Source: Sulfurospirillum cavolei
GTDB taxonomy: Bacteria; Campylobacterota; Campylobacteria; Campylobacterales; Sulfurospirillaceae
Direction: 5' to 3'
NCBI RefSeq assembly: GCF_001548055.1
Contig: NZ_AP014724.1
Location: forward strand, 1,736,001-1,800,000
Length of the DNA: 64,000 bases
Shown here piece after piece: positions 796 to 49,408 of the stretch; within the stretch, counting starts at the first letter, position 1; every line of letters begins with the position of its first letter. The notes under the pieces were generated by a model. It did not search any database, was not told where the DNA came from, and saw nothing but the letters and a program-made list of their open reading frames with translations. The translations under genes were made by a program, and so were the position numbers.

Positions 796-2991
796 ATGTC
801 ACAAACGTACGTTACGGGTTTTCCTCGAATCGGAGAAAACCGAGAACTCAAATTTGCCCTAGAGGCATTTTGGGCACGCAAAATACCCTTTAGCGAAGTG
901 AAAACACTCGCAAAATCCCTTCGCGCCAAACACTGGCGTGCGCAAAAAAATTGTGCGATCGACTTTATCGCATGCAACGATTTTAGCTATTACGACCTCA
1001 TGCTTGACACGAGCGTTCTTTTGGGTGCAATCCCCAAACGCTTTTTAGACATCGAAGATCCGATCCAGCGTTATTTTGCTATGGCACGCGGCGACGCGAC
1101 GCATCAAGCGATGGAGATGACCAAATGGTTTAACACCAATTACCATTACATCGTTCCCGAACTCGAAACGAAGACGCGATTTAAACTCGATACGCGTAAA
1201 ATCGAAGAAGAATATGCCGAAGCGAAAGCCTTAGGATTATCGCCTAAGATCAATCTGATCGGACCGATCACGTTTCTAGCCCTCTCCCGTATGCAAGACG
1301 CTACCGATGCTTTTGGTTTATTTGACGCGCTTTTAGAGGCGTATGAAGAGCTCTTTTCCTTCTTAAGCACGTTTGATGCGACGCTTCTAATCCAATGCGA
1401 TGAACCGATTTTCGTCAAAACCTTAGAGCCTCGTTATCTTAGTCTACTCAAACGAGCGTACGATCGCTTAGGCAAGGTCTCCTCGTCGCTTAAAATCAGC
1501 GTCGTGACCTACTTCGATCATGCCAAAGAAGCGGTCGACGTCTTGGTAACAACGCCGATTTGGGCGATCGGTTTGGATTTTGTTTACGGCAAAGAAAACC
1601 TTGACGTGCTTTCGCATTTTGGCGACAAATATCTTATTGCAGGGCTTATCGACGGGCGCAACGTTTGGAAAAATGACCTGAATGCTTCGCTTGGGCTCTT
1701 AAAACACATCCATGAATACCTTCCCAAAGAGCATGTCATCCTCTCTACTTCTTGCTCGCTTTTACATGTACCCTATTCGCTTCAAAGCGAAACGAAACTT
1801 CCGCTTGAAGTCAAAGATAAACTCAGCTTTGCCATCGAAAAACTCTCGGAATTAGAGTCGTTACGCGCGCATTTTGACGTCGGCGTTTTCGTCAAAAACG
1901 ATACCTCTAACGCTCCTGCTCCCCAAATGCCGCAACGCCCTTTCTTTCCGAAACGCTCTGCGTATGCACAACGCCGCATCGTACAAGAGAAGCAATTAGG
2001 TCTTCCACTTTTGCCCACGACGACGATCGGCTCGTTTCCGCAAACCCAAGAGATTCGATCTTTACGTGCTTCGTTCAAAAAAGGAGAACTCTCCCAAGAA
2101 GCCTATGAAAGCGAACTTCAAAAAGCCATTGAGGCGTGCGTGCGACTTCAAGAAGAGCTAGGACTCGACGTTTTGGTACACGGCGAGTTTGAACGCAACG
2201 ATATGGTCGAATACTTCGGCGAATTGTTAGAGGGTTTTGCCTTTAGTACACACGGTTGGGTGCAAAGTTACGGTAGCCGTTGCGTTAAACCTCCTTTGCT
2301 TTACGGAAGCGTTAAACGAAAAGCACCGATGACGCTTTCATGGATCACGTATGCCCAAAGCCTAAGCGATAAACCGCTCAAAGGTATGCTCACGGGTCCC
2401 GTGACGATTCTCAACTGGTCGTTCGTGCGTAACGACATCCCCAAAAGCGACGTCGCCTACGAAGTCGCACGTGCGATTAGCGATGAGATCGACGATCTGC
2501 AACGAAGCGATATTCGCATCATTCAAGTCGACGAAGCGGCGTTTAAAGAGGGCTATCCGCTGCGTTCAGAGAAGATCAAAGCGTATGAAGATTGGGCGGT
2601 CGAGAGTTTTAAAGCGAGCGTTTCCAGCGCATGGGATCAAACGCAAATCCATACGCATATGTGTTACAGCGACTTTAACGACATCATTCACACCATCGAG
2701 CGTCTCGATGCGGACGTCATCACCATCGAAACGGCACGCAGCGGCAATACGCTTCTCAAAGTCTTCAAAAACGTAGACTATAGGGCACAAATCGGACCGG
2801 GCGTGTACGACATCCACTCGCCTCGCGTTCCAAGCGTTGAAGAGATCACAACGCAAATCAAAGCGGTACTCGAAGTTTTCCCCAAAGAACAACTCTGGAT
2901 CAACCCCGATTGCGGGCTCAAAACCAGAGGCTGGGAAGAGACGAAAGCCGCACTTAAAAACATGGTCGAAGCGGTCAAAGCATTTCGATAA
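796..2991 (+). CDS. metE: Cobalamin-independent methionine synthase MetE
   Basis: 5-methyltetrahydropteroyltriglutamate--homocysteine methyltransferase, the last step of methionine synthesis without vitamin B12; cytoplasmic. The 731 residues compare with about 750 for E. coli MetE. The N-terminal half opens with the conserved GFPRIGENRELKFALE folate-binding signature. The C-terminal barrel carries the expected zinc ligands: H621 and C623 in HTHMCYSDF, E645 in ITIETARSG and C706 in NPDCGLKTRGW. The GSFPQT motif begins the second half. The start ATG follows AAAAGGAAA by about eight bases. A strong hairpin after the stop suggests single-gene termination. It sits 15 bases after a possibly disrupted ORF. 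I saw no riboswitch or clear operator upstream. Confidence 0.96.
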   Translation: MSQTYVTGFPRIGENRELKFALEAFWARKIPFSEVKTLAKSLRAKHWRAQKNCAIDFIACNDFSYYDLMLDTSVLLGAIPKRFLDIEDPIQRYFAMARGDATHQAMEMTKWFNTNYHYIVPELETKTRFKLDTRKIEEEYAEAKALGLSPKINLIGPITFLALSRMQDATDAFGLFDALLEAYEELFSFLSTFDATLLIQCDEPIFVKTLEPRYLSLLKRAYDRLGKVSSSLKISVVTYFDHAKEAVDVLVTTPIWAIGLDFVYGKENLDVLSHFGDKYLIAGLIDGRNVWKNDLNASLGLLKHIHEYLPKEHVILSTSCSLLHVPYSLQSETKLPLEVKDKLSFAIEKLSELESLRAHFDVGVFVKNDTSNAPAPQMPQRPFFPKRSAYAQRRIVQEKQLGLPLLPTTTIGSFPQTQEIRSLRASFKKGELSQEAYESELQKAIEACVRLQEELGLDVLVHGEFERNDMVEYFGELLEGFAFSTHGWVQSYGSRCVKPPLLYGSVKRKAPMTLSWITYAQSLSDKPLKGMLTGPVTILNWSFVRNDIPKSDVAYEVARAISDEIDDLQRSDIRIIQVDEAAFKEGYPLRSEKIKAYEDWAVESFKASVSSAWDQTQIHTHMCYSDFNDIIHTIERLDADVITIETARSGNTLLKVFKNVDYRAQIGPGVYDIHSPRVPSVEEITTQIKAVLEVFPKEQLWINPDCGLKTRGWEETKAALKNMVEAVKAFR

Positions 2992-2999
2992 AGATCAAC

Positions 3000-3023
3000 C
3001 GCAAGGGGAATTGTCTCCTTGCG
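3000..3023 (+). terminator. metE: Hairpin downstream of metE
   Basis: A ten-pair stem (one G-T wobble) of CGCAAGGGGA with TCTCCTTGCG around an ATTG loop begins nine bases after the metE stop. There is no long T run, so termination may be weak. An ACATGT motif follows at 3031-3036. Confidence 0.55.
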
Positions 3024-3044
3024 TCTGCTTTACATGTCAGGCTT

Positions 3045-3386
3045 TTAAAGCGTAACTTCCTCAAAGAGTTCTCTTAATTTTTGAAGCTCTTGGGGCGTTA
3101 ATGTTGCTAGTTTTTGGATGAAACGCTCATTGTCAATGGCTCGTATTTGCGTAACAACCACATCTGAATCTTGCTCCAACAGTTCTCTTTTAGCAATGCG
3201 CATACGAATGGGTTCGGCATCATCAATCAGTGAGGTGCTCAGTGGGAAAATAATGGTGGTTGGGTACTCGCTTTGGTTCAACTCATCGTTTTGAAACACA
3301 ACCGCAGGTCTTATCTTCCCCATTTCATTATTTTTCTTAATTGGATTGAGGTTCACAAGCCATATATCGCCCTTACAGACCGTCAT
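3045..3386 (-). CDS. MazF/PemK-type mRNA interferase toxin
   Basis: A 113-residue protein of the PemK/MazF family, endoribonucleases that cut mRNA when released from their antitoxin. It shows the family N-terminus GDIWLVNLNP and the conserved core KIRPAVVFQND, followed by the hydrophobic strand YPTTIIFPLSTS and a VVVTQIRAIDNERF stretch matching the Q-x-R region of the fold. The length is typical (105-120). Its ATG lies inside the end of the upstream antitoxin gene (14-base overlap), the usual coupled order of antitoxin then toxin. The gene converges on metE. The specific cut site cannot be predicted from the sequence. Confidence 0.88.
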   Translation of the reverse strand: MTVCKGDIWLVNLNPIKKNNEMGKIRPAVVFQNDELNQSEYPTTIIFPLSTSLIDDAEPIRMRIAKRELLEQDSDVVVTQIRAIDNERFIQKLATLTPQELQKLRELFEEVTL

Positions 3387-36242: not shown

Positions 36243-37616
36243 ATGATAGAGTCACACTCTCCCCTCTACGATGCTTTCAAAAGCGTCTTAAATACCATCG
36301 ATACGCAACGCGTCCAAGAGTTACTCGCCTACATGAACACCGAGGCGATCAATTTCAATCTCTTTAAAAACAATGCCTTTATCGAACGTAAATTTCCGTT
36401 CGATATTATTCCGCGCATCGTTTCCCACCAAGAGTTCACGTACCTTGAAAAAGGCATTCAACAGCGCATTTACGCCCTCAACCTCTTTTTAGAAGACATT
36501 TACGGTGCGCAAAAAATTCTCAAAGACGGCATTATTCCCAGCGAATTCGTCTTCGCGTCCAAAGCCTATCTGCCCGCATTTGCGAATACACCCGTATCAA
36601 AGAACATTCGCGTGCATATCAGCGGCATCGATTTGGTCAAAAACAGCGTCGGCGACGGCTGGGTCGTTTTGGAGGACAATCTACGCGTTCCAAGCGGCGT
36701 GAGTTATCCGCTTTCGTTGCGTATTTTGACGCGCAAAGTTTTTCCCGAATTTTTTGAAAAGCTCCCGATTCAAAGCGTGCACGATTATCCCAAGCGTCTC
36801 GAAGCGGCGATGGACTACGTCAATACGGGCGGTATTAACGTTATTCTTACTCCCGGACGGTACAATTCGGCGTTTTACGAACACTCGTACCTTGCCAAGC
36901 AAAGCGGTACGGTCTTAGCGACGGGAGACGACCTCTTTGTCGAAAAAGACAAAGTCTACCTGAAAACCTATCTCGGCAAAAAAGCGCGCGTCGGTGCGAT
37001 TTACCGTCGTCTCGACGACGATGCGCTCGATCCGGTGGAGTTCAATGCCGACTCGCTTATCGGCGTACCGAACATCACCCAAGCCTACCGTGCCGGCAAT
37101 ATCGCGCTTATGAACAGCATCGGAAACGGCATCGCCGACGACAAAGGGATTTATTACTTCGTACCGGCGATGATTCGTTATTATATGAACGAAGAACCGA
37201 TCTTACAAAACGCGCCGACGTATTTGGCATTTTTTGAAAAAGATCGCAATCACATCTTGCAAAACCTACGCACGCTCGTCATTAAAGACGTCGCCGAAGC
37301 GGGCGGATACGGCGTCGTTTTCGGCTCTAAACTCTCCAAAAACGAGCGCGAAGCCCTCAAAGACGCTATCATCAAAGAACCCAGACGCTTTATTGCTCAA
37401 GAAGTCATCGAATTTTACGACATCGAGTGCTTAACGAACGAAGGAACGTTAAGCCCGAGAAAAGCCGATCTTCGAATGTTTTCGATCTTTAGCGACGATA
37501 TTTTCATCTGGCCGTGCGGCTTGACGCGTTATGCTATGGATCCGAGCAGCTACATCGTCAACTCTTCCCAAGGCGGAGGATTTAAAGATACGTGGGTTTT
37601 AAAGGAGAGCAAATGA
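36243..37616 (+). CDS. Circularly permuted ATP-grasp protein (COG2308)
   Basis: A 457-residue protein of the circularly permuted ATP-grasp type 2 family (DUF404/DUF407). Recognisable stretches: RIYALNLFLEDIYGAQKIL, NLRVPSGVSYPL, ILTPGRYNSAFYEHSYLAKQ, GDDLFVEKDKVYLKT and YIVNSSQGGGFKDTWVL at the C-terminus. Such enzymes are predicted carboxylate-amine ligases that form peptide or amide bonds; the substrate is unknown. AAAGG precedes the ATG. It starts a five-gene module in which each next gene overlaps it: alpha-E, transglutaminase-like and two M14-like genes. A separate fused homologue is at 43566-46046. Confidence 0.9.
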   Translation: MIESHSPLYDAFKSVLNTIDTQRVQELLAYMNTEAINFNLFKNNAFIERKFPFDIIPRIVSHQEFTYLEKGIQQRIYALNLFLEDIYGAQKILKDGIIPSEFVFASKAYLPAFANTPVSKNIRVHISGIDLVKNSVGDGWVVLEDNLRVPSGVSYPLSLRILTRKVFPEFFEKLPIQSVHDYPKRLEAAMDYVNTGGINVILTPGRYNSAFYEHSYLAKQSGTVLATGDDLFVEKDKVYLKTYLGKKARVGAIYRRLDDDALDPVEFNADSLIGVPNITQAYRAGNIALMNSIGNGIADDKGIYYFVPAMIRYYMNEEPILQNAPTYLAFFEKDRNHILQNLRTLVIKDVAEAGGYGVVFGSKLSKNEREALKDAIIKEPRRFIAQEVIEFYDIECLTNEGTLSPRKADLRMFSIFSDDIFIWPCGLTRYAMDPSSYIVNSSQGGGFKDTWVLKESK

Positions 37617-38275
37617 TCCTCATTTCACCGCAAACCGCCGAAAGCCTCTACTGGATGGGACGATACATCCAACGTGCCGAGAGTATGACGCGTCTTATTA
37701 TCGCGCTGTTCGATAAAATTATCGACGAAAACTTCAACGAAGCCAAAGATCTGTACGAAAAATTGGGTATCGCGCTTCATTATACTTCTTCGCAGGCGTT
37801 TTTGCGTAAAAGCGTCTTTGAACTTGATTTTATCAGTTTGCTCTACGTCATCAATACCGCACGCGAAAATGCGATCTTAACGCGTTCGCACCTGCCCAAT
37901 CGTATGTTTAGCCGTATTAACGCTTTGTATTTAAAATACCAAGCCGCTAAAGAAGAGCCTACGGTCTCGATTTATTGGCTCGAATCGACGCTTCAGGAAC
38001 TCGATGCGATCTGGGGCAATTTGGAACTCTCTTTGGTAGAATCCAAAGAAGCACCGCTCATCGAACTTGGAAAAGTCGTCGAACGTATGGATCTGAGTAT
38101 TCGCCTGTTCGACAGTATCGAAGCGGCCGTTTGGGATACAGAAAAGCTTAATGTCATTGCCGATAAAATACGTCCCGGTCACAAAAAAATTCTTTTATCC
38201 AGTAGCCAAAAAGCCAAAGCTTTAGCTACGATCAATTCGGTATTTGGAGCTTTAATCACATCTCATGAAAGTTAA
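37613..38275 (+). CDS. Alpha-E domain protein (COG2307)
   Basis: A 220-residue all-helical alpha-E (DUF403) protein: SAESLYWMGRYIQRAESMTRL-like start (ESLYWMGRYIQRAE), then ENAILTRSHLPNRMFSRIN and KVVERMDLSIRLFDSIE. The family always accompanies the COG2308 ATP-grasp and probably forms the acceptor or regulatory partner. Its ATG overlaps the ATP-grasp stop (ATGA), and the last 11 bases overlap the transglutaminase-like gene. In the second module the equivalent domain is fused to the ligase. Confidence 0.9.
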   Translation: MILISPQTAESLYWMGRYIQRAESMTRLIIALFDKIIDENFNEAKDLYEKLGIALHYTSSQAFLRKSVFELDFISLLYVINTARENAILTRSHLPNRMFSRINALYLKYQAAKEEPTVSIYWLESTLQELDAIWGNLELSLVESKEAPLIELGKVVERMDLSIRLFDSIEAAVWDTEKLNVIADKIRPGHKKILLSSSQKAKALATINSVFGALITSHES

Positions 38276-39038
38276 TTTTTCGTATGATTTTACCCTCACG
38301 TTTCCAGAATCCGTGAGAGACCATCGCTACTGTTTGCGTATCGTTCCTTACGAAAACGCTATACAAACCTGTTCCAACCTTGACATACGCGTCAATACGA
38401 ATGCGGCGTTCGAACAAGGAACCGACGGTTTTGCCAACCGTTTCGTGTACGGGACCATCGCAAAACCGCACAAAAGTTTAAGCGCACACATCGAAGGCGA
38501 ACTCGAGCTTTTACCCTACGTCTATTGCGACGAAGAGCCTCCCGCTCTTTACAATGCACCTTCGCCGCTTGTGAGCTTTTGCGCGTTGATGCAGGCGTTT
38601 TTGGACGAAACGACGCTTCCGGTGAGTGCTTTTCGCAAGGCTTTTATGCTCACGCAAAAAATACGTGATAGCTTTACGCTGATCGAAAGTACCAAAGCGG
38701 AAGGGTTGGAGAGTTTTTTACTCTATAAAGAGGGGCTTCGAAACGATTTTAGCCATCTTTTGATTGCTTTATTGCGACATGTCAACATTCCCGCTCGTCT
38801 GTGCCACGGTTTTATCGAAGGCGAAAATAAAACGCATACGTGGGTCGAAGCATGGATGGACGGCGATTGGAGAGGATTCGATCCGATCAAAGGCATCGTC
38901 ATTCACGACGAACCTTACGTAAAATTGGCACATGGACGCGATTTTTCCGATTGTGCGATTTACAAAGGCAGTTATATCGGAAAACGTCAACACATTTTAA
39001 AAATTACGGGACAAATCGGAAGGGAAGAACAACAATGA
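38265..39038 (+). CDS. Transglutaminase-like protein lacking the catalytic cysteine
   Basis: A 257-residue protein with an N-terminal beta region and a C-terminal transglutaminase core. The expected pattern G-x-C-x-D-F at the nucleophile is here G157-L-R159-N-D-F, so arginine replaces cysteine. The paralogue at 42672 keeps C189 and the DUF2126 protein keeps C180 in the same alignment. The histidine and aspartate positions survive (THTWVEAWMDGDWRGFDP). The fold is intact but peptidase or transamidase chemistry would be lost, so it is probably a binding or scaffold subunit. It overlaps both neighbours by 11 and 4 bases. Confidence 0.88.
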   Translation: MKVNFSYDFTLTFPESVRDHRYCLRIVPYENAIQTCSNLDIRVNTNAAFEQGTDGFANRFVYGTIAKPHKSLSAHIEGELELLPYVYCDEEPPALYNAPSPLVSFCALMQAFLDETTLPVSAFRKAFMLTQKIRDSFTLIESTKAEGLESFLLYKEGLRNDFSHLLIALLRHVNIPARLCHGFIEGENKTHTWVEAWMDGDWRGFDPIKGIVIHDEPYVKLAHGRDFSDCAIYKGSYIGKRQHILKITGQIGREEQQ

Positions 39039-39988
39039 TCGAAGAAGTTTTCAGCGTTCAACTTCCCGTCAACGAGACGCTTTCGCTCAAACGCAACCGT
39101 TTTGCGCCGAGCGATATTACGAAAGCGACCAAACGCATTTCGATCGTCACGGGCATTCACGGCGACGAAATCGAAGGGCAATACGTCTGTTACTTGCTTG
39201 CCAAATGGCTCAATGCCAACCCTGAGGCGATTAAAGGCATCGTCGATATTTATCCCGCCATGAATCCGATGGGCATCGATAGCATTACGCGTGGTTTTCC
39301 GTTTTACGACGTCGATCTAAACCGTACGTTTCCGGGAAGCACGTCCGATTTTTTACCCGCGCAAGTCTCCAACGCCATCGTCGATACGGTCAAAGGAAGC
39401 GACTACGCCATCGATATTCACGCAAGCAATATCTTTTTACGCGAACTCCCCCAAGTGCGCATCAGCCGCGCCAATGCCGACGAGTTGGTTCCTCTAGCGG
39501 AAAAACTCGGTATCGATTTTATTTGGGTGCACGATGCGGTAACGGTTTTGGAGTCGACCTTTTCGCATGCGATGAACACGCTCGGTACGCGAACCTTGGT
39601 CGTGGAAATGGGTGTCGGAATGCGTATTACCAAAGAGTACGGACAAAACCTCACGCGCGGTCTTTTGAACCTGATGGCACATGTAGGCATTATCGATAAG
39701 CCAATTTTACCGCCGACGACGCTTGCGGTTTCAACGCTCAATTCCGAAGTTTTTTTTATCAACGCCTCCAAAGCGGGCGTTTTTATTCCTATTTTAGAGC
39801 ATAACGTCAGCGTACTGCGCGGCGAAAAACTCGGGGAAATCATTGATCCGCTTTTGGGCGTCGTCCAAGAGACGATCATCAGCCCGTGCAACGGACTTTT
39901 ATTTACGATTCGCGAATACCCCGTCGTTTACGAAGGCTCTTTGATTGCTCGCATACTAGAAGACCCCAAAGAGGAAGCAAGCGTATGA
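39035..39988 (+). CDS. M14-type aspartoacylase/succinylglutamate desuccinylase-like enzyme
   Basis: A 317-residue zinc hydrolase of the AspA/AstE family. The zinc ligands are visible: H42 and E45 in GIHGDEIEG and H129 in AIDIHAS. The substrate-binding arginine lies in DVDLNRTFPGS and a glutamate base in LVVEMGVG. A C-terminal beta domain (~235-317) includes IISPCNGLLFTI. Members cleave N-acyl amino acids or peptides. Starts with an ATGA overlap of the transglutaminase-like gene and ends with an ATGA overlap of the inactive paralogue. It may release or trim what the ATP-grasp ligase makes, which is inference. Confidence 0.9.
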   Translation: MIEEVFSVQLPVNETLSLKRNRFAPSDITKATKRISIVTGIHGDEIEGQYVCYLLAKWLNANPEAIKGIVDIYPAMNPMGIDSITRGFPFYDVDLNRTFPGSTSDFLPAQVSNAIVDTVKGSDYAIDIHASNIFLRELPQVRISRANADELVPLAEKLGIDFIWVHDAVTVLESTFSHAMNTLGTRTLVVEMGVGMRITKEYGQNLTRGLLNLMAHVGIIDKPILPPTTLAVSTLNSEVFFINASKAGVFIPILEHNVSVLRGEKLGEIIDPLLGVVQETIISPCNGLLFTIREYPVVYEGSLIARILEDPKEEASV

Positions 39989-40941
39989 GAGAAGAAGTTT
40001 TATTTGAAATCAGCTCTTTGAGCCGCAATCCGCTTAAAGTCAAAGGGTACCGCTTTGGACGAGAAGGTACGACGCCTAGTTGCGTGATCGTAGGACCGAT
40101 GACGGGAAACGCGATCGATCAACTGTGGATCGCCTCTCAAGTCGTACGCTTTTTACGCCAACAAGAACTGGCAAACGCCGCATTTATCAAAGGCGAAATT
40201 CTCGTCGTTCCTACGGTCAATCCCTATTCCTTCAATATGGGCAAAAGTTTCTGGCCGCTCGATAACACCGACATTGACGTGATGTTTCCGGGCTATGATA
40301 AAGGCGAGACGACCCAACGCATCGCCGCACGACTGTTTGAAAAAACCAACAACTACGACTACGCAATTTTACTCGAAGCCAGAAAAGATCACGTCGAGTG
40401 TATCCCTTACGTCAAAGTGTTGCAAACGGGTCGCGAAAATATCGATCATGCCAGAGCGTTCGGGCTTGATTTTATTCATCTCAAAGAGCCGAGTCCTAGC
40501 GATACGGTTTCGCTGAACTACAACTGGCAAATCTGGAACGCGCAATCGTTTTCGCTCGTCTCGGGTAAAAAAGGTGTTTTACAAAAAAACGAAGCCAATA
40601 AAGTGATCGATGCGATCATTCGGTTTCTTTCGCAAAAAGGGCTGATCGATTATGCGACGTTTGCGGCATCAAGCGGCAACATCATCACGCAAAACGACAT
40701 TGAAGCGATTAAAAGCACCGCCGCGGGACTCTTCGACGCGCTGGTTCCGATCGGCGAATGCGTCGTTCACGGTCAACCATTAGGTCGTATTTTCAATGCG
40801 CTGGAAGGAACGTTGATGCAGACGATTATCTCTCCGTGCGACGGCATCGTTTCGTGTCGCTACGACTATTCGATGATTTTTCAAAATGCGATCGCGTACC
40901 GTATTATCAAAGCGGAAGCGGCACTAAATCGTTACATGTAA
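39985..40941 (+). CDS. Inactive M14 aspartoacylase-like paralogue
   Basis: A 318-residue paralogue of the preceding enzyme. It aligns through the same segments, including the C-terminal domain with IISPCDGIVSC, but the zinc-binding positions are replaced: G-P-M39-T-G-N42 instead of G-I-H-G-D-E, DIDVMFPG instead of DLNRTFPG, and ILLEARKDH where DIHAS would be. All three ligands are lost, so hydrolysis is unlikely. Being translationally coupled to the intact copy, it may form a mixed dimer or bind substrate. It ends in a TTACATGTAA palindrome that includes its stop codon. Confidence 0.87.
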   Translation: MREEVLFEISSLSRNPLKVKGYRFGREGTTPSCVIVGPMTGNAIDQLWIASQVVRFLRQQELANAAFIKGEILVVPTVNPYSFNMGKSFWPLDNTDIDVMFPGYDKGETTQRIAARLFEKTNNYDYAILLEARKDHVECIPYVKVLQTGRENIDHARAFGLDFIHLKEPSPSDTVSLNYNWQIWNAQSFSLVSGKKGVLQKNEANKVIDAIIRFLSQKGLIDYATFAASSGNIITQNDIEAIKSTAAGLFDALVPIGECVVHGQPLGRIFNALEGTLMQTIISPCDGIVSCRYDYSMIFQNAIAYRIIKAEAALNRYM

Positions 40942-40982: not shown

Positions 40983-42593
40983 TTATGAGCGGAATTGATT
41001 GAGTTTGGTATTGAGGTTTTCGGCTAAACGCGAGAGATGATCCGCCGCCGCGGCGATCTCTTCGACGCTTCTAGCGTTTTGGCTGGTCAGCGTATTGATG
41101 TTGGAAACCATAGAGACGATTTTATCGGTGTCGTTGGAAATCTTATGCGAATTGGACGCACTCGTCGTTACGGACGTCACGCTCTTTTCCATCACGTCTA
41201 CCGTTCCCAAAATCGTCGATTCGACGCCGCTGGAAACATCTGTCAGCCTTTGAATATTTCGAGCGTTTTTATTCATCTGATCGGACGAATCCACGATCGA
41301 CTGAACGATGACGTTGATGGTCGCGTTAATCTCGGTCAAAGAGGCTTGCGTACGTTCGGCAAGCTTTCGCACCTCATCCGCAACGACGGCAAATCCGCGT
41401 CCGTGTTCTCCGGCACGTGCCGCTTCGATGGCGGCATTGAGCGCCAATAAATTCGTTTGGTCCGCAATATCGGAGATGACGGTCAAAATTTGTTTGACCT
41501 GCTCGGCATCGTGGCTCATCTGCTCCAATTTATGCGCCAATGCGCTCTCGGCCTGACTGGCATTATCGACTTCGTTTCGCAACGAAATAACCTCTTCTTT
41601 GGCATTGTTAAGCTTTTGACCCGCAGAGGCGATCTCCGTTTTCATCGCTTCGGAGAGTTGTGCCGTCTCTTGAACGAAACGTTTGATCGTATCGATCTCG
41701 TGAATCGCGTTTTCGACGATCAAAGAGCTTTGCTCGGCATTGCGCCCGATTTGCATACTGGTCGTACTAAGCTCATGCGAAACCGATGCGTTTTCGTTGG
41801 ACGAATTTTTGGCATCTTCGATCGTGTGTTCTAGCGTATCGACCAAGTCGTTGAAACTCTTGACGATCTCGTTGATTTCGTTTTTCTTGTCGTAGCTGAT
41901 GCGAAATTTGAGCTCTTTGGTGCGCACAAAACTCGTGATACTGTCGCGAATCAAATGCACGCCTTGCAAAATATTTTTGCGAATCGCAAAGCTTAAAACC
42001 AAGACCGAAAGCCCAACGGCGAGCGCGACCAAAATCATCATCAACGTTGCGTTTTCTTTCGTATCGACGGCAATCTTCGCATCGTTTTGCGATAAGGTTT
42101 TATTGTACGCCATATGCTCTTCCAAAAGGGTATTGAGTGCCGTGCTTTGTGTACGCAAGTTATACAACAATGCTTTAGCTTCTTCGTTTCTATCGGCTGA
42201 CGACAAGGTAAAGAGTTGCTCGGAAATAGCGATAAAAGGGCTAATCAGCTCTTTTTCCTTAAGATACATCTCTTTATCTTTTTCGTCGGAAAGTAAACTT
42301 TCGTATTTTTTATAGCTGGCGTCAAATTTTGCCCGATACTCGTGAAAACGTTTTTCAATCCTTTGAAAATCCTCTTTATCGTGAGCCGTAATGTGTTCCC
42401 ACAGCCTCACGCGCATCTGATTAAATTCGTTTTGCATGTCCGCCATAATTAAAACGCTCGGAAGCGAATTGACGTTACAGGTATTGGTTTTTTCAAACAC
42501 TTGCTCCATCTTGGTCAGCCCGATACCGAAAATAGCGATAAGCCCGAAAATAGCGATGGATAGCATCATCATCAATTGTCGTGAAATACTCAT
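40983..42593 (-). CDS. Methyl-accepting chemotaxis protein, 4HB-type sensor (second copy)
   Basis: A 536-residue chemoreceptor paralogous to the one at 27287-28897, same length and architecture: helix ~7-25, four-helix-bundle sensor, helix ~187-210, HAMP and signalling domain with [17 protein letters not shown]. The sensor begins with [16 protein letters not shown], almost matching the other copy, while the rest of the sensor diverges. I chose the ATG at 42591-42593 because AAGGAG lies six bases upstream. It lies between the two ligase modules on the same strand as the second, without overlap with either. Confidence 0.92.
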
Positions 42594-42671
42594 AGTTGAC
42601 TCCTTTATGATCTTGAGTGAAATCATAACTTAGCAAGTGTGACAAATGCGTTGCATGCTAAAAAAGGAGTT

Positions 42672-43562
42672 TTAAATGTTTCGTCGTACGTCCACTTCGA
42701 TGGAAAGTTTGCTTTGCCCGCTACTGAGCACCACGCCTCGAAGCGGTGCAACGTCGTCGTAGTCTCTGCCGCTTCCTAAGACGATGTGTTGCGTGCTTGC
42801 AAGAAGATTGTTCGTCGGGTCGAATGCCGCCCAACCGTATTGCGGGATATACACGCCGACCCACGCATGCGACGCGTCGCTTCCGAAGAGTTTTTCGCCT
42901 CCAAGCGGAGGCACGGTTTCGATATAGCCGCTGACGTATCGAGCACTCAGTCCCAACGAACGAAGTGCCGCAATCGCAAATTGCGCAAAGTCTTGGCACA
43001 CGCCTTTCTTGGCTTCGAAAATCTCCTCAATCGGCGTCGTAATATCGCTAAAACCGGCGACAAAATCAAAATCGTCGTAGATGCGCCCCATAAACTCTTT
43101 GATCGCTTCGGCGATAGGACGGTGCGGTTCGAACGAACGTCGCGCATAAGCGCGAATAGCGTCCGAAGCCTTGGGAATACGTTTGGAGTCGAATAAAAAG
43201 AGCTTTGCCTCAATCGCATCGGGATCAAAACGCGTTAATGCGCTTGCGACCTCTTCACATGTCAGCGTTAACGCTTCAAAACGCTCGACGCGCCTTAAGA
43301 CCTCTTGTTCGTCTATGCTGACATGGGAACGACCGACGACGCTCAAGGATCGATGCGCCTCGCGAATCAACAAATGCGACGTTGCGTTCCCGAACATATC
43401 GGTAAAATCGCTGGTTTCGTACGCCAATGGCGTCACTTCCATCTGAAAATCCATGACATGTTGCGTGACACTCTCTTTGGGACGCAACCGTGCGATATTG
43501 TGGCTAAACGTCACAAGCCCTTGATAATGAAACGCCGTTTGATGGTAAATTTCGTACGTCAT
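42672..43562 (-). CDS. Transglutaminase-like protease/transamidase (COG1305)
   Basis: A 296-residue protein with an N-terminal beta domain (~1-90; TYEIYHQTAFHYQGLVTFSH, HNIARLRP) and a transglutaminase core (~150-290). The catalytic triad is visible: C189 in GVCQDFAQF, H in SHAWVGVYIPQYGWAAFD, and its aspartate. This arrangement, with the DUF N-terminal domain, is usual for proteins linked to ATP-grasp and alpha-E genes. It is the last gene of the second module, three bases after the fused ligase gene. It probably cleaves or crosslinks a peptide; substrate unknown. Confidence 0.9.
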   Translation of the reverse strand: MTYEIYHQTAFHYQGLVTFSHNIARLRPKESVTQHVMDFQMEVTPLAYETSDFTDMFGNATSHLLIREAHRSLSVVGRSHVSIDEQEVLRRVERFEALTLTCEEVASALTRFDPDAIEAKLFLFDSKRIPKASDAIRAYARRSFEPHRPIAEAIKEFMGRIYDDFDFVAGFSDITTPIEEIFEAKKGVCQDFAQFAIAALRSLGLSARYVSGYIETVPPLGGEKLFGSDASHAWVGVYIPQYGWAAFDPTNNLLASTQHIVLGSGRDYDDVAPLRGVVLSSGQSKLSIEVDVRRNI

Positions 43563-43565
43563 AGG

Positions 43566-46046
43566 CTACTCGTCATAATGGGAAAAATAGGTTTTGGAAA
43601 GCTCCACCGAACACAGTGAAAAATGTTCCGAAAGCTGTGTCAAAAGTCGATCGAGTGCCGTGTAAAAGCTTTCATTCTCGTCTAAGAGCATCAACGACGC
43701 AAGGTTACTGAGCGTGAGAGTGCTGTACGCTTGAAAAATCGGCTCTTCGTAAGCACTCAAATACGTCTTGCGTTTGGGCAGAGCCTTTAAGTCCTCCAAC
43801 AAAGCTTGCGTCACGTAAGCGACGGATTTGGGAAAATGCGGATTTAAGATCAAAAACTCCACCACGTTTTCAAGTTGTAAAGAGCTTTTATACTGCGTAC
43901 GGTACGCGTTAAAGCTTTCGCTTGAGCTCAAAAATGCCTCTAAAATATCGTACGTCACGGCTTTATCGTGTTTAAAACAGAGCAATGAACGTGCTTTCGA
44001 AAGCGTTAAAAGCGCACTTTCGAGTTTAAATCCGATGTCGTAGACGATCAAACCTTGCTCTTTGTACATACTCTCTTCCACCAGCTCTTTGTATGCCACA
44101 AGGTACAACAACACTTTATCGAGTTCGCTTAACATACTGCGAACGGGCGTATTGGGTTTTTTCGTAAATTGCTTCCACTCTTTTTGCATCTGTTCGAACA
44201 GTTTCCACGCCTCGATCGCCAACAGGCTTTTAACGCAAAGATTTGCATTGCCCAGTCGTTCCAGCGTAAACGCGAGAGAGCCTTGTTTGTGGGCGTCTTT
44301 CATCAACGAGGCGATTTCAAGCAAGGGATTTTGCGCCGTCTCTTCGTCTAAAAATCCCGGATACGTCATCGTCACATGGGTTAACGCTTTTTGCAAGGTG
44401 CGTTTGGACTCTTGCGAAACGCTGCCTTCGTAGTGGTGAAAATCGGTCATCTTTTTGACCGTATAGCGCATCAGTCGCAACGTATGAATCGCACGCGAAA
44501 GATAACGCCCGAGCCAAAAGAGGTTCTCGGCTTTGAGCGTGGGCAAGGTGTTGAGCGAAGCGTCGATAAAGGGCAAAGCCGCATAATTTGGAAGATTTTC
44601 GTTCTTTTTATCCTCTCCCAAAATCCACAAATCTTTGCTCGTTCCTCCCTTTTGCGACGAAACGAGCAATGCGTCTTTGGAAGCGGAAACGCGCACCAAT
44701 CCGCCGTTCATCACGGTGTAATTTTCATTCTTTTTCAAGGCGTAAGCGCGTATGACCGCATTGCGCGGTTCGATTTTGCCGTTACCGTAAAAAGGCGTCG
44801 TCGAAAAGTCGATCGCCTCTTGTGCGACGTACTGATGCGGATTGTCTAAAACGCTTTTTTGCAGTTTCTCTTTCATCGCTTCGGAAAGGTTTTTGACCAA
44901 ATAGGTCTGAATCGATTCGGTTTTGTCGATTTTTTTAAGAATAAAATTCTCGAAGTTTTCCATCACGAACGTTAACTCTTTTTCTTGTCCGCACCACCAC
45001 GTTGCGATTTGCGGCAAAATCAGCTCTTCGTTCAGAAAAAAACGGCAAATACGTTCCATAAAAGGGTTCAGTCCGATATTTTCCACAATCGCACTGCCGA
45101 TGGGATTGATCATCGCAAGATTGCCTTGGCGTACGCAATCCACCAAACCCGCAACGCCGAGCTTTGAATCTTCCAAAAGCTCCAGCGGATCGCAAAATCG
45201 ATCGTCCAGACGTTTGACCAAGGTTTGAATCGGTTTGAGTCCGCTTAAACTTTTCAGCCATACGCTACCGTTTTTGCACAACAGATCATCGCCTTGAACG
45301 AGGTTAATTTCTAAAAACGAACTCAGATACGCATGTTCAAAATAGGTCTCGTTGTGCGGTCCGGGCGTTAAAAGCGCGGCTTTAGAAGTGTCGCCTTTGG
45401 TCAGTTTTTTGAGCAGTTTTTTATACTCTTCAATAAAAGGAAAAAGCTTTTTGACCTCATGGTCCGCGTAAAAATCTTTCGCCGCGATATTCATCGTCAA
45501 ACGGTTTTCGATGGCATACCCCAAACCCGAAGGTGCTTGCGTGCGATCGTTAATGACCCACATCTTTCCGTCCGGCCCTCTTGCTAGGTCTAATGCGTAA
45601 AAATAGAGCTGAAAATCTTCACGTAAGCCCATACCGTGTACGGCACTCAAAAAGCCTTTGTGCGTAAAAATAACTTCGGCGGGAATGATGTTCTCTTTTA
45701 AGAGCAACCGTTCGCCGTAGAGGTCTTTTAAAATAAAATTGAGCAGTTTGGCACGTTGTTTAATCCCTTGTTTGACGCTTTTCCACTCTTCTTTCGTGAT
45801 CATAAAAGGAATCGGATCTAAACTCCACGGACGGTTGCCTTCGCCCTCCGGATCGTTATAAACGTTGTACGTAACGCCGTTATCTTCCAGATGCCATGCG
45901 ATCTCGGCTTGTTTACTCTCCAACTCCTCAACGCTCAAACGCTCCAAATGTGCCGCTAAGTTCTTCCAATGCGCCCGTACGTTACGGTCTTTATCGACCA
46001 TTTCGTCACAAAAAGAGGCAGAAGCGTAGGTATCGAAAAACTGCAT
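43566..46046 (-). CDS. Circularly permuted ATP-grasp / alpha-E fusion
   Basis: An 826-residue fusion. Residues ~40-480 are the COG2308 ATP-grasp (RAKLLNFILKDLYGERLLL, INDRTQAPSGLGYAIENR, LLTPGPHNETYFEHAYLSSF, VSSQKGGTSKDLWIL). Residues ~510-826 are an alpha-E domain (AENLFWLGRYLSRAIHTLRL, MYKEQGLIVYDIGFKLESAL). In the first module these are separate genes (36243 and 37613). The ligase would activate a carboxylate with ATP and join it to an amine. Its start overlaps the upstream stop by one base (TAATG) and its stop lies three bases before the transglutaminase gene. Confidence 0.92.
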   Translation of the reverse strand: MQFFDTYASASFCDEMVDKDRNVRAHWKNLAAHLERLSVEELESKQAEIAWHLEDNGVTYNVYNDPEGEGNRPWSLDPIPFMITKEEWKSVKQGIKQRAKLLNFILKDLYGERLLLKENIIPAEVIFTHKGFLSAVHGMGLREDFQLYFYALDLARGPDGKMWVINDRTQAPSGLGYAIENRLTMNIAAKDFYADHEVKKLFPFIEEYKKLLKKLTKGDTSKAALLTPGPHNETYFEHAYLSSFLEINLVQGDDLLCKNGSVWLKSLSGLKPIQTLVKRLDDRFCDPLELLEDSKLGVAGLVDCVRQGNLAMINPIGSAIVENIGLNPFMERICRFFLNEELILPQIATWWCGQEKELTFVMENFENFILKKIDKTESIQTYLVKNLSEAMKEKLQKSVLDNPHQYVAQEAIDFSTTPFYGNGKIEPRNAVIRAYALKKNENYTVMNGGLVRVSASKDALLVSSQKGGTSKDLWILGEDKKNENLPNYAALPFIDASLNTLPTLKAENLFWLGRYLSRAIHTLRLMRYTVKKMTDFHHYEGSVSQESKRTLQKALTHVTMTYPGFLDEETAQNPLLEIASLMKDAHKQGSLAFTLERLGNANLCVKSLLAIEAWKLFEQMQKEWKQFTKKPNTPVRSMLSELDKVLLYLVAYKELVEESMYKEQGLIVYDIGFKLESALLTLSKARSLLCFKHDKAVTYDILEAFLSSSESFNAYRTQYKSSLQLENVVEFLILNPHFPKSVAYVTQALLEDLKALPKRKTYLSAYEEPIFQAYSTLTLSNLASLMLLDENESFYTALDRLLTQLSEHFSLCSVELSKTYFSHYDE

Positions 46047-49000
46047 TAGGCTTTCATTCCTTTTCGTCTTAGATCGAGCGTATGCGGGTATTCAAGGCTC
46101 GGCGGTAAGGTCTCGACCCACAAAGTCTTCGTAGGATCGCCCTCCAACGCCATCACGGTCGCACGCGTGTTTACATGCGCGGTTGAAGTCTGAATCACCG
46201 AAGGCGTAAGATAGCGTAGCTCGCCTTGAGAATGGTTAAAATCCCAAAAACGGTTGATACGTCTGGACTGGGCTTCGTAACTGTTGATCGGGAAAGTGTC
46301 GTAACTGCGTCCGCCCGGATGAGCCACAAAATAACGCATACCGCCGATGGAGCGTTGGTTCCAACGATCAACCACGTCAAACGTTAAAGGCGTATCCACG
46401 CCGATGGTGGGATGCAAAGCCGACCACGGTTGCCACGCTTTGTACTTCACGCCCGCAACGAATTCTCCTTCCACGCCTGTGGGCGAAAGCGGAACGACGA
46501 CGCCGTTACATGTAAGGGTATAGCGTTCGGGAATAAAATCTTTGATCTTGACTTGCACGCGCTCCAACGAAGAATCTACATAGCGAGACGTTCCTTGTGA
46601 GCCGCTCTCTTCGCCAAGAACATGCCAAGGCTCGATGGCGGCGCGAAGTTCCAGATGCATCTTTTCAATCGTCGTCATTCCGTAAAGCGGAAAGCGAAAC
46701 TCGAAAAACGGATCGAACCAATCCAGCGCAAAAGGATAACCTTCGGCATTGAGAAAACCGACAATGTCGCGTAAATCTTCTTTGACGTAGTGTTCCAGTA
46801 AAAACTTATCGTGAAGCTGTGTGCCCCAGCGCACCAGTTGGTGTTGGTACGGTTTTTTCCAAAAGAGAGCAACCAAAGTGCGTACTAAAAGCATCTGTAA
46901 AAGCGCCATCTGCGCGTGTGGAGGCATATCAAACGCACGTAGTTCCAAGATGCCAAGCCTGCCACTGCTGGAATCGGGCGAATAGAGCTTGTCGATGCAA
47001 AATTCGCTTCGGTGTGTGTTGCCTGTAATGTCGGTCAGCATATGGCGAAACAGCCTATCGGTCAGCCAAAACGGCACACTCTCGCCCTCGGGAATCTGCG
47101 CAAAGGCGATCTCAAGCTCGTAGAGATTTTCCGCCCTGCCCTCATCCACACGTGGTGCTTGCGAGGTTGGACCGATAAATGCGCCTGAGAAGAGGTACGA
47201 AAGTCCTGGGTGGTGTTGCCAAAACGTGATAAGACTGCGAAGCAGATCGGGACGGCGTAACAGCGGACTGTCTTCGGGTTTGAGCGCACCGATCGTGACG
47301 TGATTGCCCCCGCCCGTGCCTGTGTGTTTGCCGTCTAACATAAACTTTTCTGTCCCCAAGCGTGATTCGTGTGCCTCTTTGTAGAGGGTCAAAAGATTCT
47401 CACTGAGTGCTTTCCACGATGTTGCAGGGTGAATGTTCACTTCAATGACACCGGGGTCTGGCGTGACTTTGATGCGCTCTAGCCTTAGATCATGCGAAGG
47501 TTCATACCCTTCCAAAAATACTTTTACATGTAAAGATTCTGCCACCGCTTCGATGCATGCGACCAAGTCTAAAAGGGCTTCTGTATGGTTGAGGGGTGGA
47601 AGAAAGATAAAGAGTTTTCCCTCGCGCACTTCTGCGCAAAGTGCCGTGCGTACAAAGGTCTGGGTTTGGGTATTTGAAAGGGTTGCATCGACTTTTTTGC
47701 AACGCTTGTGTGCTAAGATGCTGTACTCGCCCAAAGCGGGATAATGCGCAAACAGATCGGGTTCAAAAGGAAGTGCTAGCTCAGAGTGCGGCTTTTCGAC
47801 CAAAGAGCCCAGTGGAAGCCTGAGCCCAAGGGGTGAATTGCCCGCACTGAGGTACAAATAGCCACGCCTTAACACCCACGAAGAGGTGATCCATCGTGTC
47901 GTTCCAAAATTCAACGGTAACACATACCCCACAGGATTATTAAGCCCCCTAGAGAACACTTTGGCGATCGTTTGTCGCTCCAAAGAGTCGGAGAGATCGG
48001 ATTTCATCGGATCGATGTCGATGGGCAGTTCGGACTCTTTAATGATGTAATACAAGGGGTCTTCGTACGCTTCAATAATGTTTTGATCGCTCACACCAAG
48101 GGTCAGTGCTAGTTTGGCTAAAAAGCGTTTGGCATCGTCGTTAGTATAGTCGTAGGTTTCGTTCATATCGGCAAACAGTGTAGGATTGTTCCAGATGGGT
48201 TTGCCATCTTTGCGCCAAATGATGGAGGTTTGCCACCTTGGAAGCGGCTCACCAGGGTACCATTTCCCTTGGGCATAGTGAAGCATGCCACCTTTGGTAA
48301 ATGAGCTTAAAAGTTTGCGTGAGAGTGTGTCGGCGAGAGAGCGTTTGTGCGCACCGTCGGCTTTGGTATTCCACTCATCGCCTTCCATATCATCAATCGA
48401 AACAAAGGTCGGCTCACCACCCATGGAAAGCCTTACATCGCCCTCTTCCAAAGCTTTGTCGACTTCAAAACCTAAGTTATAAATAGCATCCCATTGGTCT
48501 TCACGGTACGGTTTGGTCACACGCGGCGATTCAAAAATGCGTTTGACCGTGTTGTCATAAATGAATTCTGTTTCGCATTTATCGCTCATACCCTCGATCG
48601 CATAGGCACTCTCATACGAAGGCGTGCACGCAAGCGGTATATGTCCCTCGCCCGCAAAAAGCCCACTGGTCGCATCAAGCCCTATCCAGCCGGCTCCGGG
48701 GATATAGACTTCCGTCCACGCATGAAGATCGGTAAAGTCTGCTTCGGGACCACTTGGGCCATCGAGTGAGGCGACATCGGCTTTGAGTTGCACGAGGTAG
48801 CCCGAGACAAACCGCGCCGCAAGCCCTAGATGGCGAAGCACTTGCACAAACAGCCACGCAAAGTCACGGCAACTGCCCAGTTTTTTTTCCAACGTCACTT
48901 CGCAGGTTTGCACTCCCGGTTCTAAACGAATCGTGTAGGAGAGATGGCGGTTGATCTCGCTATTAAGATAGACCAAAAAATCAATAATAGAGCGTTTTTT

Positions 49001-49408
49001 ACAATCCAAAGAGCGTACAAAAGCCCTTAAAAGCTCACCATCCTCGCTCTCTTCAAGGTAGGGAAGCAGTTCCTTTTGGAGTTCTTTTTTGTAGACAAAT
49101 GGAAACTCTTTGGCATACTCATCGACAAAAAAATCAAACGGATTGATCGTGATGAGATCGGCGATGATCTCCACATCGATGCAGAGCTCTTTCGTTTTTT
49201 CAGGAAAAACGATGCGTGCTAAGTAGTTGCCAAAAGGGTCTTGTTGCCAGTTGATAAAATGGTTTTCGGGTTTGATTTTGAGCGAATAGCCCTCAATCGG
49301 GGTGCGACTGTGAGGAGCTGGGCGCAAACGGATGATATGCGGGGACAGAGAAACGTAACGATCGTAACGGTACTCGGTTTTATGCGACAAAACGACTTTA
49401 AGCGACAT
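46046..49408 (-). CDS. Transglutaminase-like / DUF2126 (predicted amidoligase) protein
   Basis: A 1120-residue protein (COG4196 type). The first ~290 residues hold a transglutaminase-like domain with C180 in GSCRDFAWLF and the H/D pair in DLHAWTEVYIPGAGWIGLD. The remainder is DUF2126, a family predicted to have a glutamine-synthetase-like ligase fold: GEPTFVSIDDMEGDEWNTKA, WRKDGKPIWNNPTLFAD, LDGKHTGTGGGNHVTIGAL and RRPDLLRSLITFWQHHPGLS. It would join an amine to a carboxylate with ATP. It leads the second module. About the first 2 kb of the gene (near 47.3-49.4) appears poorer in CG than the remainder. Confidence 0.9.
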   Translation of the reverse strand: MSLKVVLSHKTEYRYDRYVSLSPHIIRLRPAPHSRTPIEGYSLKIKPENHFINWQQDPFGNYLARIVFPEKTKELCIDVEIIADLITINPFDFFVDEYAKEFPFVYKKELQKELLPYLEESEDGELLRAFVRSLDCKKRSIIDFLVYLNSEINRHLSYTIRLEPGVQTCEVTLEKKLGSCRDFAWLFVQVLRHLGLAARFVSGYLVQLKADVASLDGPSGPEADFTDLHAWTEVYIPGAGWIGLDATSGLFAGEGHIPLACTPSYESAYAIEGMSDKCETEFIYDNTVKRIFESPRVTKPYREDQWDAIYNLGFEVDKALEEGDVRLSMGGEPTFVSIDDMEGDEWNTKADGAHKRSLADTLSRKLLSSFTKGGMLHYAQGKWYPGEPLPRWQTSIIWRKDGKPIWNNPTLFADMNETYDYTNDDAKRFLAKLALTLGVSDQNIIEAYEDPLYYIIKESELPIDIDPMKSDLSDSLERQTIAKVFSRGLNNPVGYVLPLNFGTTRWITSSWVLRRGYLYLSAGNSPLGLRLPLGSLVEKPHSELALPFEPDLFAHYPALGEYSILAHKRCKKVDATLSNTQTQTFVRTALCAEVREGKLFIFLPPLNHTEALLDLVACIEAVAESLHVKVFLEGYEPSHDLRLERIKVTPDPGVIEVNIHPATSWKALSENLLTLYKEAHESRLGTEKFMLDGKHTGTGGGNHVTIGALKPEDSPLLRRPDLLRSLITFWQHHPGLSYLFSGAFIGPTSQAPRVDEGRAENLYELEIAFAQIPEGESVPFWLTDRLFRHMLTDITGNTHRSEFCIDKLYSPDSSSGRLGILELRAFDMPPHAQMALLQMLLVRTLVALFWKKPYQHQLVRWGTQLHDKFLLEHYVKEDLRDIVGFLNAEGYPFALDWFDPFFEFRFPLYGMTTIEKMHLELRAAIEPWHVLGEESGSQGTSRYVDSSLERVQVKIKDFIPERYTLTCNGVVVPLSPTGVEGEFVAGVKYKAWQPWSALHPTIGVDTPLTFDVVDRWNQRSIGGMRYFVAHPGGRSYDTFPINSYEAQSRRINRFWDFNHSQGELRYLTPSVIQTSTAHVNTRATVMALEGDPTKTLWVETLPPSLEYPHTLDLRRKGMKA

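Follow-up and report, generated by a model that had tools for sequence, protein, structure and literature searches.

A conserved, predicted inactive paralogue accompanies an AstE/AspA-type zinc amidohydrolase in bacterial ATP-grasp/alpha-E operons

Why would an operon keep, side by side, an apparently intact zinc hydrolase and a full-length relative of it that has lost the metal site? This question is raised by two overlapping genes at 39035-40941 (+), here called M14A and M14B, in a 64,000-nucleotide stretch of Sulfurospirillum cavolei DNA (hereafter the window; contig NZ_AP014724.1, positions 1,736,001 to 1,800,000). We consider the residues and predicted folds of the two proteins, the distribution and ancestry of the pair, and the operon in which it lies, and weigh what the second protein may do.

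Both proteins belong to an AstE/AspA-like family. The Pfam model PF24827, which describes the catalytic domain of succinylglutamate desuccinylase/aspartoacylase, recognizes M14A (39035..39988, +; 317 aa) with 69.3 bits (E 4e-19; cut-off 25) and M14B (39985..40941, +; 318 aa) with 37.8 bits (E 2e-9), and matches all 89 M14B members scanned, whereas the peptidase M14 model PF00246 does not detect the pair. M14A displays the motifs G40-I-H42-G-D-E45, D94-L-N96-R97-TFPG, D127-I-H129 and V190-E191-M-G, a complete catalytic set consisting of the zinc triad (H42, E45, H129), the substrate motif DxNR (N96-R97) and the general base (E191). By its sequence, M14A lacks none of the residues of an AstE/AspA-type zinc amidohydrolase, and activity is predicted. 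In M14B the motifs read G37-P-M39-T-G-N42 and D96-I-D98-V99-MFPG (DIDV for DLNR), with E131 at the place of the third ligand and V192 at that of the general base. An earlier note on this DNA had already read the full zinc site in the first protein, M39, N42 and a non-histidine residue at the ligand places of its overlapping downstream paralogue, and DIDVMFPG in place of DLNRTFPG, and had aligned the two over their whole length; profile-profile alignment of the families agrees, spanning residues 3-314 and 4-313 with the C-terminal domain included (21% identity, E 7e-36). Its description of the pair as fused does not hold, as M14A and M14B are separate proteins that are only coupled, through a 4-nt ATGA stop/start overlap (39985..39988, +) read directly in the sequence. 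The note made no mention of the general-base Glu, whose loss from M14B is more telling than that of the zinc ligands.

Predicted structures place both proteins in the same fold. The M14A model (pLDDT 86) matches DoeB (6twm; Z 30.9, rmsd 2.1 over 294 residues), the M14B model (pLDDT 89.6) matches 3cdx (Z 30.1, rmsd 2.9 over 299 residues), and each matches DoeB, 3cdx, 3na6 and the cyanophycin dipeptide hydrolase CphZ over nearly its whole length (Z 27-31). The fold of the PF24827 amidohydrolases (DoeB/EutE 6twm, CphZ 8ein, 3cdx) is common to M14A and M14B, but the zinc triad and the aligned Glu are found in M14A and neither of them in M14B; the M14A Glu aligns with that of DoeB, 3cdx and 2qj8. 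As modeled, M14B keeps the fold of M14A without zinc ligands or general base, and judging by its residues it is a member of the AstE/AspA family by descent, not as an enzyme.

These losses recur throughout the homologues. Among 91 distinct M14B sequences, none holds H39, E42 or H131 (0/91): M, L, I or T stands at the first place, N, D or T at the second, A, E, P, T or S at the third, and Y, F, I, V or L where the general base would be. In M14A, H42, E45, H129, N96, R97 and E191 are invariant in 86-88 of 88 sequences (the zinc ligands in 87-88), and 63 stand-alone relatives, taken from phylum-wide samples for comparison, keep H, E, H and the Glu without exception (63/63). Chance loss in M14B is excluded by this difference. 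The substrate Asn-Arg behaves differently, being intact in 71/71 M14B outside Campylobacterota and replaced within that phylum by Asp (19/20) followed by Val, Ala, Thr or Met; the Campylobacterota proteins also share a constant E131-x-R133-K134-D135...C139 stretch at the old third-ligand region.

The pair closes an operon of five genes whose boundaries all overlap. A circularly permuted ATP-grasp ligase (36243..37616, +; PF14403, E 1e-135; dN/dS 0.022 against the nearest relative) is followed by an alpha-E domain protein (37613..38275, +; PF04168, E 7e-22), which overlaps the ligase gene by ATGA and stands in the same order in related loci, then by a transglutaminase-like protein (38265..39038, +; PF01841, E 2e-14), M14A and M14B. 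Scans for promoters and terminators across the operon found no excess of sites over the chance expectation. The best 80 loci of an M14B-based scan of bacterial genomes, many of which are MAGs, come from Sulfurospirillum, Lachnospiraceae, other Bacillota, Bacteroidales, Succinivibrio and Duodenibacillus, and the pair is thereby found in Campylobacterota, Bacillota, Bacteroidota and Pseudomonadota. Most of these 80 loci match the window in all five genes and in their order, with M14A and M14B nearly always the last two; in one locus, unrelated genes are inserted between the transglutaminase and M14A. M14A adjoins M14B wherever flanking DNA is present, including all 19 genomes of the genus that have M14B, and further pairs came from samples of the phyla of Lachnospiraceae (348 genomes), Bacteroidales (345) and Succinivibrio (398), with M14A beside M14B in every clear case. 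M14B without M14A was seen only at contig ends or in split assemblies (three loci), and no solitary M14A of this operon type occurred among the loci compared. The same 4-nt overlap joins the two genes in 43 of 84 related pairs, an overlap of any length in 56/84, and the gap is 30 nt or less in 79/84. No extra conserved operon gene or substrate protein appeared within about 8 kb, where other families reach at most 16 of 77 loci, with ORFs shorter than 90 aa left unclustered.

The transglutaminase-like gene is less constant. Its catalytic Cys, within GVCQDF, is kept in the gut loci, the intermediate loci (see below) and some Sulfurospirillum loci, is Ser in S. diekertiae-like genomes (GLSQDF or GISQDF), and is Arg in the window (GLRNDF), where the gene is under purifying selection (dN/dS 0.072); the window protein (38265-39038) looks like a second pseudoenzyme of the same operon. 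Some Sulfurospirillum operons lack the gene altogether, with alpha-E followed directly by M14A (six loci). Because either the Cys or the gene has been lost in some of its loci, the ligase, alpha-E and the M14 pair are the durable core in Sulfurospirillum. In the clade of the window, where the M14B substrate Arg and the transglutaminase Cys are both gone, the chemistry of the system could be in the course of being abandoned.

Nearby lies a second amidoligase cluster (42672-49408, -), composed of a transglutaminase with intact Cys, a CP-ATP-grasp/alpha-E fusion and a transglutaminase/DUF2126 putative amidoligase, which also adjoins the five-gene operon in other Sulfurospirillum genomes. A methyl-accepting chemotaxis protein (40983-42626, -) separates the two clusters here, and in one other locus they are directly adjacent. 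The genome has a third PF24827 match (1784-3175, -, of locus L134, near 708700), which is longer, resembles by eye the Csd4/Pgp1 cell-shape carboxypeptidases and is unrelated to the pair.

How old is the pair, and in what order were the residues lost? In a tree of 66 proteins, M14A forms one clade (100/98), as do the zinc-less M14B (100/100) and the zinc-less together with intermediate M14B (99/95). Leaving out the four catalytic motifs left the groups unchanged (zinc-less plus intermediate M14B 96/95), ruling out that convergence in the motifs forces the tree. That M14A is the active parent of M14B, as the earlier note had it, is not supported; the two are sister lineages, and on this tree the pair is the product of one old duplication followed by co-inheritance across four phyla. 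The M14A and M14B of Succinivibrio and Duodenibacillus (Pseudomonadota; three loci) group with those of Bacteroidota and Bacillota. The comparison suggests that the whole operon was transferred between gut bacteria.

The intermediate M14B come from seven genomes, namely six of nine genomes of one family and a genome drawn with the Succinivibrio sample (G764), whose M14B sits on a long branch and is unsure in its exact place. They lie in the same operon, retain HGDE or HGNE, DINR and DVH/DIH, and carry Met or Val where the general-base Glu would stand; by the mechanism of the family they should be inactive too. The earlier note had held that homologues keeping the histidines would speak against its reading, and such homologues do exist in these seven genomes, yet their general-base Glu is gone. 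Because this early branch keeps the ligands without the Glu, the general base was probably lost first; the zinc site probably followed on the stem of the main clade, and then the Asn-Arg in Campylobacterota only.

What, then, might the second protein do? The likeliest answer is close to the obligate mixed dimer suggested in the earlier note: we consider it rather probable that M14A and M14B form an obligate complex, a heteromer in which only M14A cuts, within an amide-conjugate system. Coupled translation would supply the two proteins in equal amounts, M14A would cut the amide bond, and M14B would give a structural face; in most lineages, M14B would also provide a second, non-cutting pocket whose Asn-Arg carboxylate clamp positions or gates the substrate. 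This substrate would probably come from the ATP-grasp/alpha-E ligase of the same operon, as its product or as a conjugate; the ligase itself, and the amides that AstE, DoeB and CphZ are known to act on, suggest an amino-acid or peptide conjugate from the operon. The substrate-holding subunit proposed in the earlier note accords with the Asn-Arg kept in 71/71 M14B outside Campylobacterota, but fits the window protein, with Asp-Val, less well; since the clamp too has been lost in Campylobacterota, the role of M14B may have shifted there from substrate binding to structure or regulation. More tentatively, with confidence a little short of even, we propose that this half-enzyme, half-pseudoenzyme heteromer of the AstE/AspA branch is the dedicated hydrolase of an amide-conjugate pathway in gut anaerobes and Sulfurospirillum, and that its lineages preserve the successive losses of general base, zinc and substrate clamp, in that order.

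The evolutionary distances of M14A and M14B are correlated (r = 0.87), and the correlation is 0.46 after the distances of the ligase are removed; the same correction leaves 0.34 for M14A or M14B with the transglutaminase. As 0.46 is only a little higher, most of the residual correlation between M14A and M14B reflects shared operon history, and a coupling analysis would need more than the 57 distinct pairs available. The correlation and the frequent coupling support, without proving, contact between the two proteins. Counting against the heteromer, the known AstE/AspA enzymes, to our knowledge, work without a dead partner, and the two losses in the clade of the window might mark a system going out of use there.

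Several other readings must be set against this. M14B might act alone as a binding or sensor protein, taking up the ligase product or a peptide and regulating the ligase or M14A without a fixed complex. A binder would explain why the Asn-Arg clamp is kept outside Campylobacterota though the zinc site is gone, and M14B has a specific invariant cluster, NYNW..W; yet the gene constantly adjoins, and is often ATGA-coupled to, M14A and not the ligase, and Campylobacterota have lost the clamp and still keep the gene, so that we regard this as unlikely. Pseudoenzyme partners can also inhibit, and coupled translation would hold M14A and M14B at 1:1, as would suit an M14B that inhibits or stores M14A, the heteromer being inactive and M14A working once released or as a homodimer. 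The strict co-inheritance through apparent inter-phylum transfers fits a needed subunit equally, and inhibition or storage seems to us a decidedly improbable function.

The conserved residues of M14B itself bear on whether it has acquired a chemistry of its own, metal-free or differently metallated. Across 89 sequences, 26 columns are invariant, including R14, N79, N84, D93, T95, D96, F101-P-G103, G107-E108, T110-Q111, D173, Y179-N-W181 and W184; the polar ones among them (N79, N84, D93, D96, E108, Q111, D173, N180), together with the new invariant E131, R133, K134, D135 and C139 at the old zinc site of Campylobacterota, could be taken for a new active site. However, D96, the FPG turn and the Asn-Arg are what is left of the AstE pattern; the two clades have different residues at the zinc site, as would not be expected of one new active site; and no His or Cys is invariant, the commonest (H142 in 69/91, C50 in 65/91, H293 in 61/91) being Tyr, Ala and Tyr in the window protein, so that alternative zinc ligands were rejected. 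New catalysis seems very unlikely to us. The loss of three zinc ligands and the general base, and in Campylobacterota of the substrate Arg, might suggest a decaying duplicate that has yet to disappear. This is hardly credible for a gene with full-length frames in four phyla, 26 invariant columns, no solitary M14A in the operon type, and strong purifying selection (dN/dS against the nearest relative genome, for pairs with unsaturated dS, 0.044, compared with 0.024 for M14A, and 0.05-0.07 in other pairs); the selection and the four-phylum conservation rule out a pseudogene or local decay. Taken at the level of sequence, the comparisons support M14B as a conserved paralogue under selection, dead as a catalyst and always found with an intact M14A.

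Operons that join ATP-grasp and alpha-E genes were reportedly defined by Iyer et al. in 2009. The Anbu operon consists of ATP-grasp, alpha-E, transglutaminase and Anbu genes (PMC6376114, PMC5666114); its first three genes have the same order as those of the window, where the M14 pair stands in the place that the Ntn hydrolase Anbu would take. Anbu was found neither in the operon nor elsewhere in the genome, the sole match to the proteasome-fold model PF00227 being HslV. A precedent for the proposed heteromer is TldD/TldE, homologous subunits of which only one has a metal site and both are required for activity, TldE being regarded as a copy whose center has been lost; the complex matures peptides such as microcin B17 (PMC5810440). 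The M14 pair shares with it, by sequence, a metal site in one of two homologous subunits, but the fold is unrelated, and TldD/TldE is an analogue of mechanism only. M16 pairs such as the alpha and beta subunits of mitochondrial processing peptidase include a homologous but inactive subunit, which provides residues that the metallopeptidase needs (PMC11266112, PMC12731061); these differ in fold and clan and are not M14-like. Both examples show that a live metallopeptidase subunit and a dead one can make up an obligate enzyme. Closer in fold are the M14 pseudopeptidases CPXM1/2, AEBP1, domain III of carboxypeptidase D and Ecm14, which have lost ligands or the general base (PMC11266112), as M14B has, and carboxypeptidase D combines active and inactive domains in one chain. 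All of these, however, are eukaryotic and of the carboxypeptidase branch rather than AstE/AspA, and none is an operon-encoded subunit. The AstE/AspA structures matched by our models are described as single enzymes, none being listed with an inactive partner.

Active/inactive pairs are thus known in other metalloprotease folds, and we came across no account of one in the AstE/AspA branch or among bacterial M14-like enzymes; no description of the M14A/M14B pair was found in the open literature, a search outside which the founding ATP-grasp/alpha-E operon paper lay. The live protein seems to work in permanent partnership with its dead copy. With its age, its presence in four phyla and its surviving intermediates, the pair offers a natural series on what a subunit does after it ceases to be an enzyme. 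In gut bacteria it further directs attention to an unstudied amide-ligase system, the hydrolase half of which can be expressed as a defined two-protein unit.
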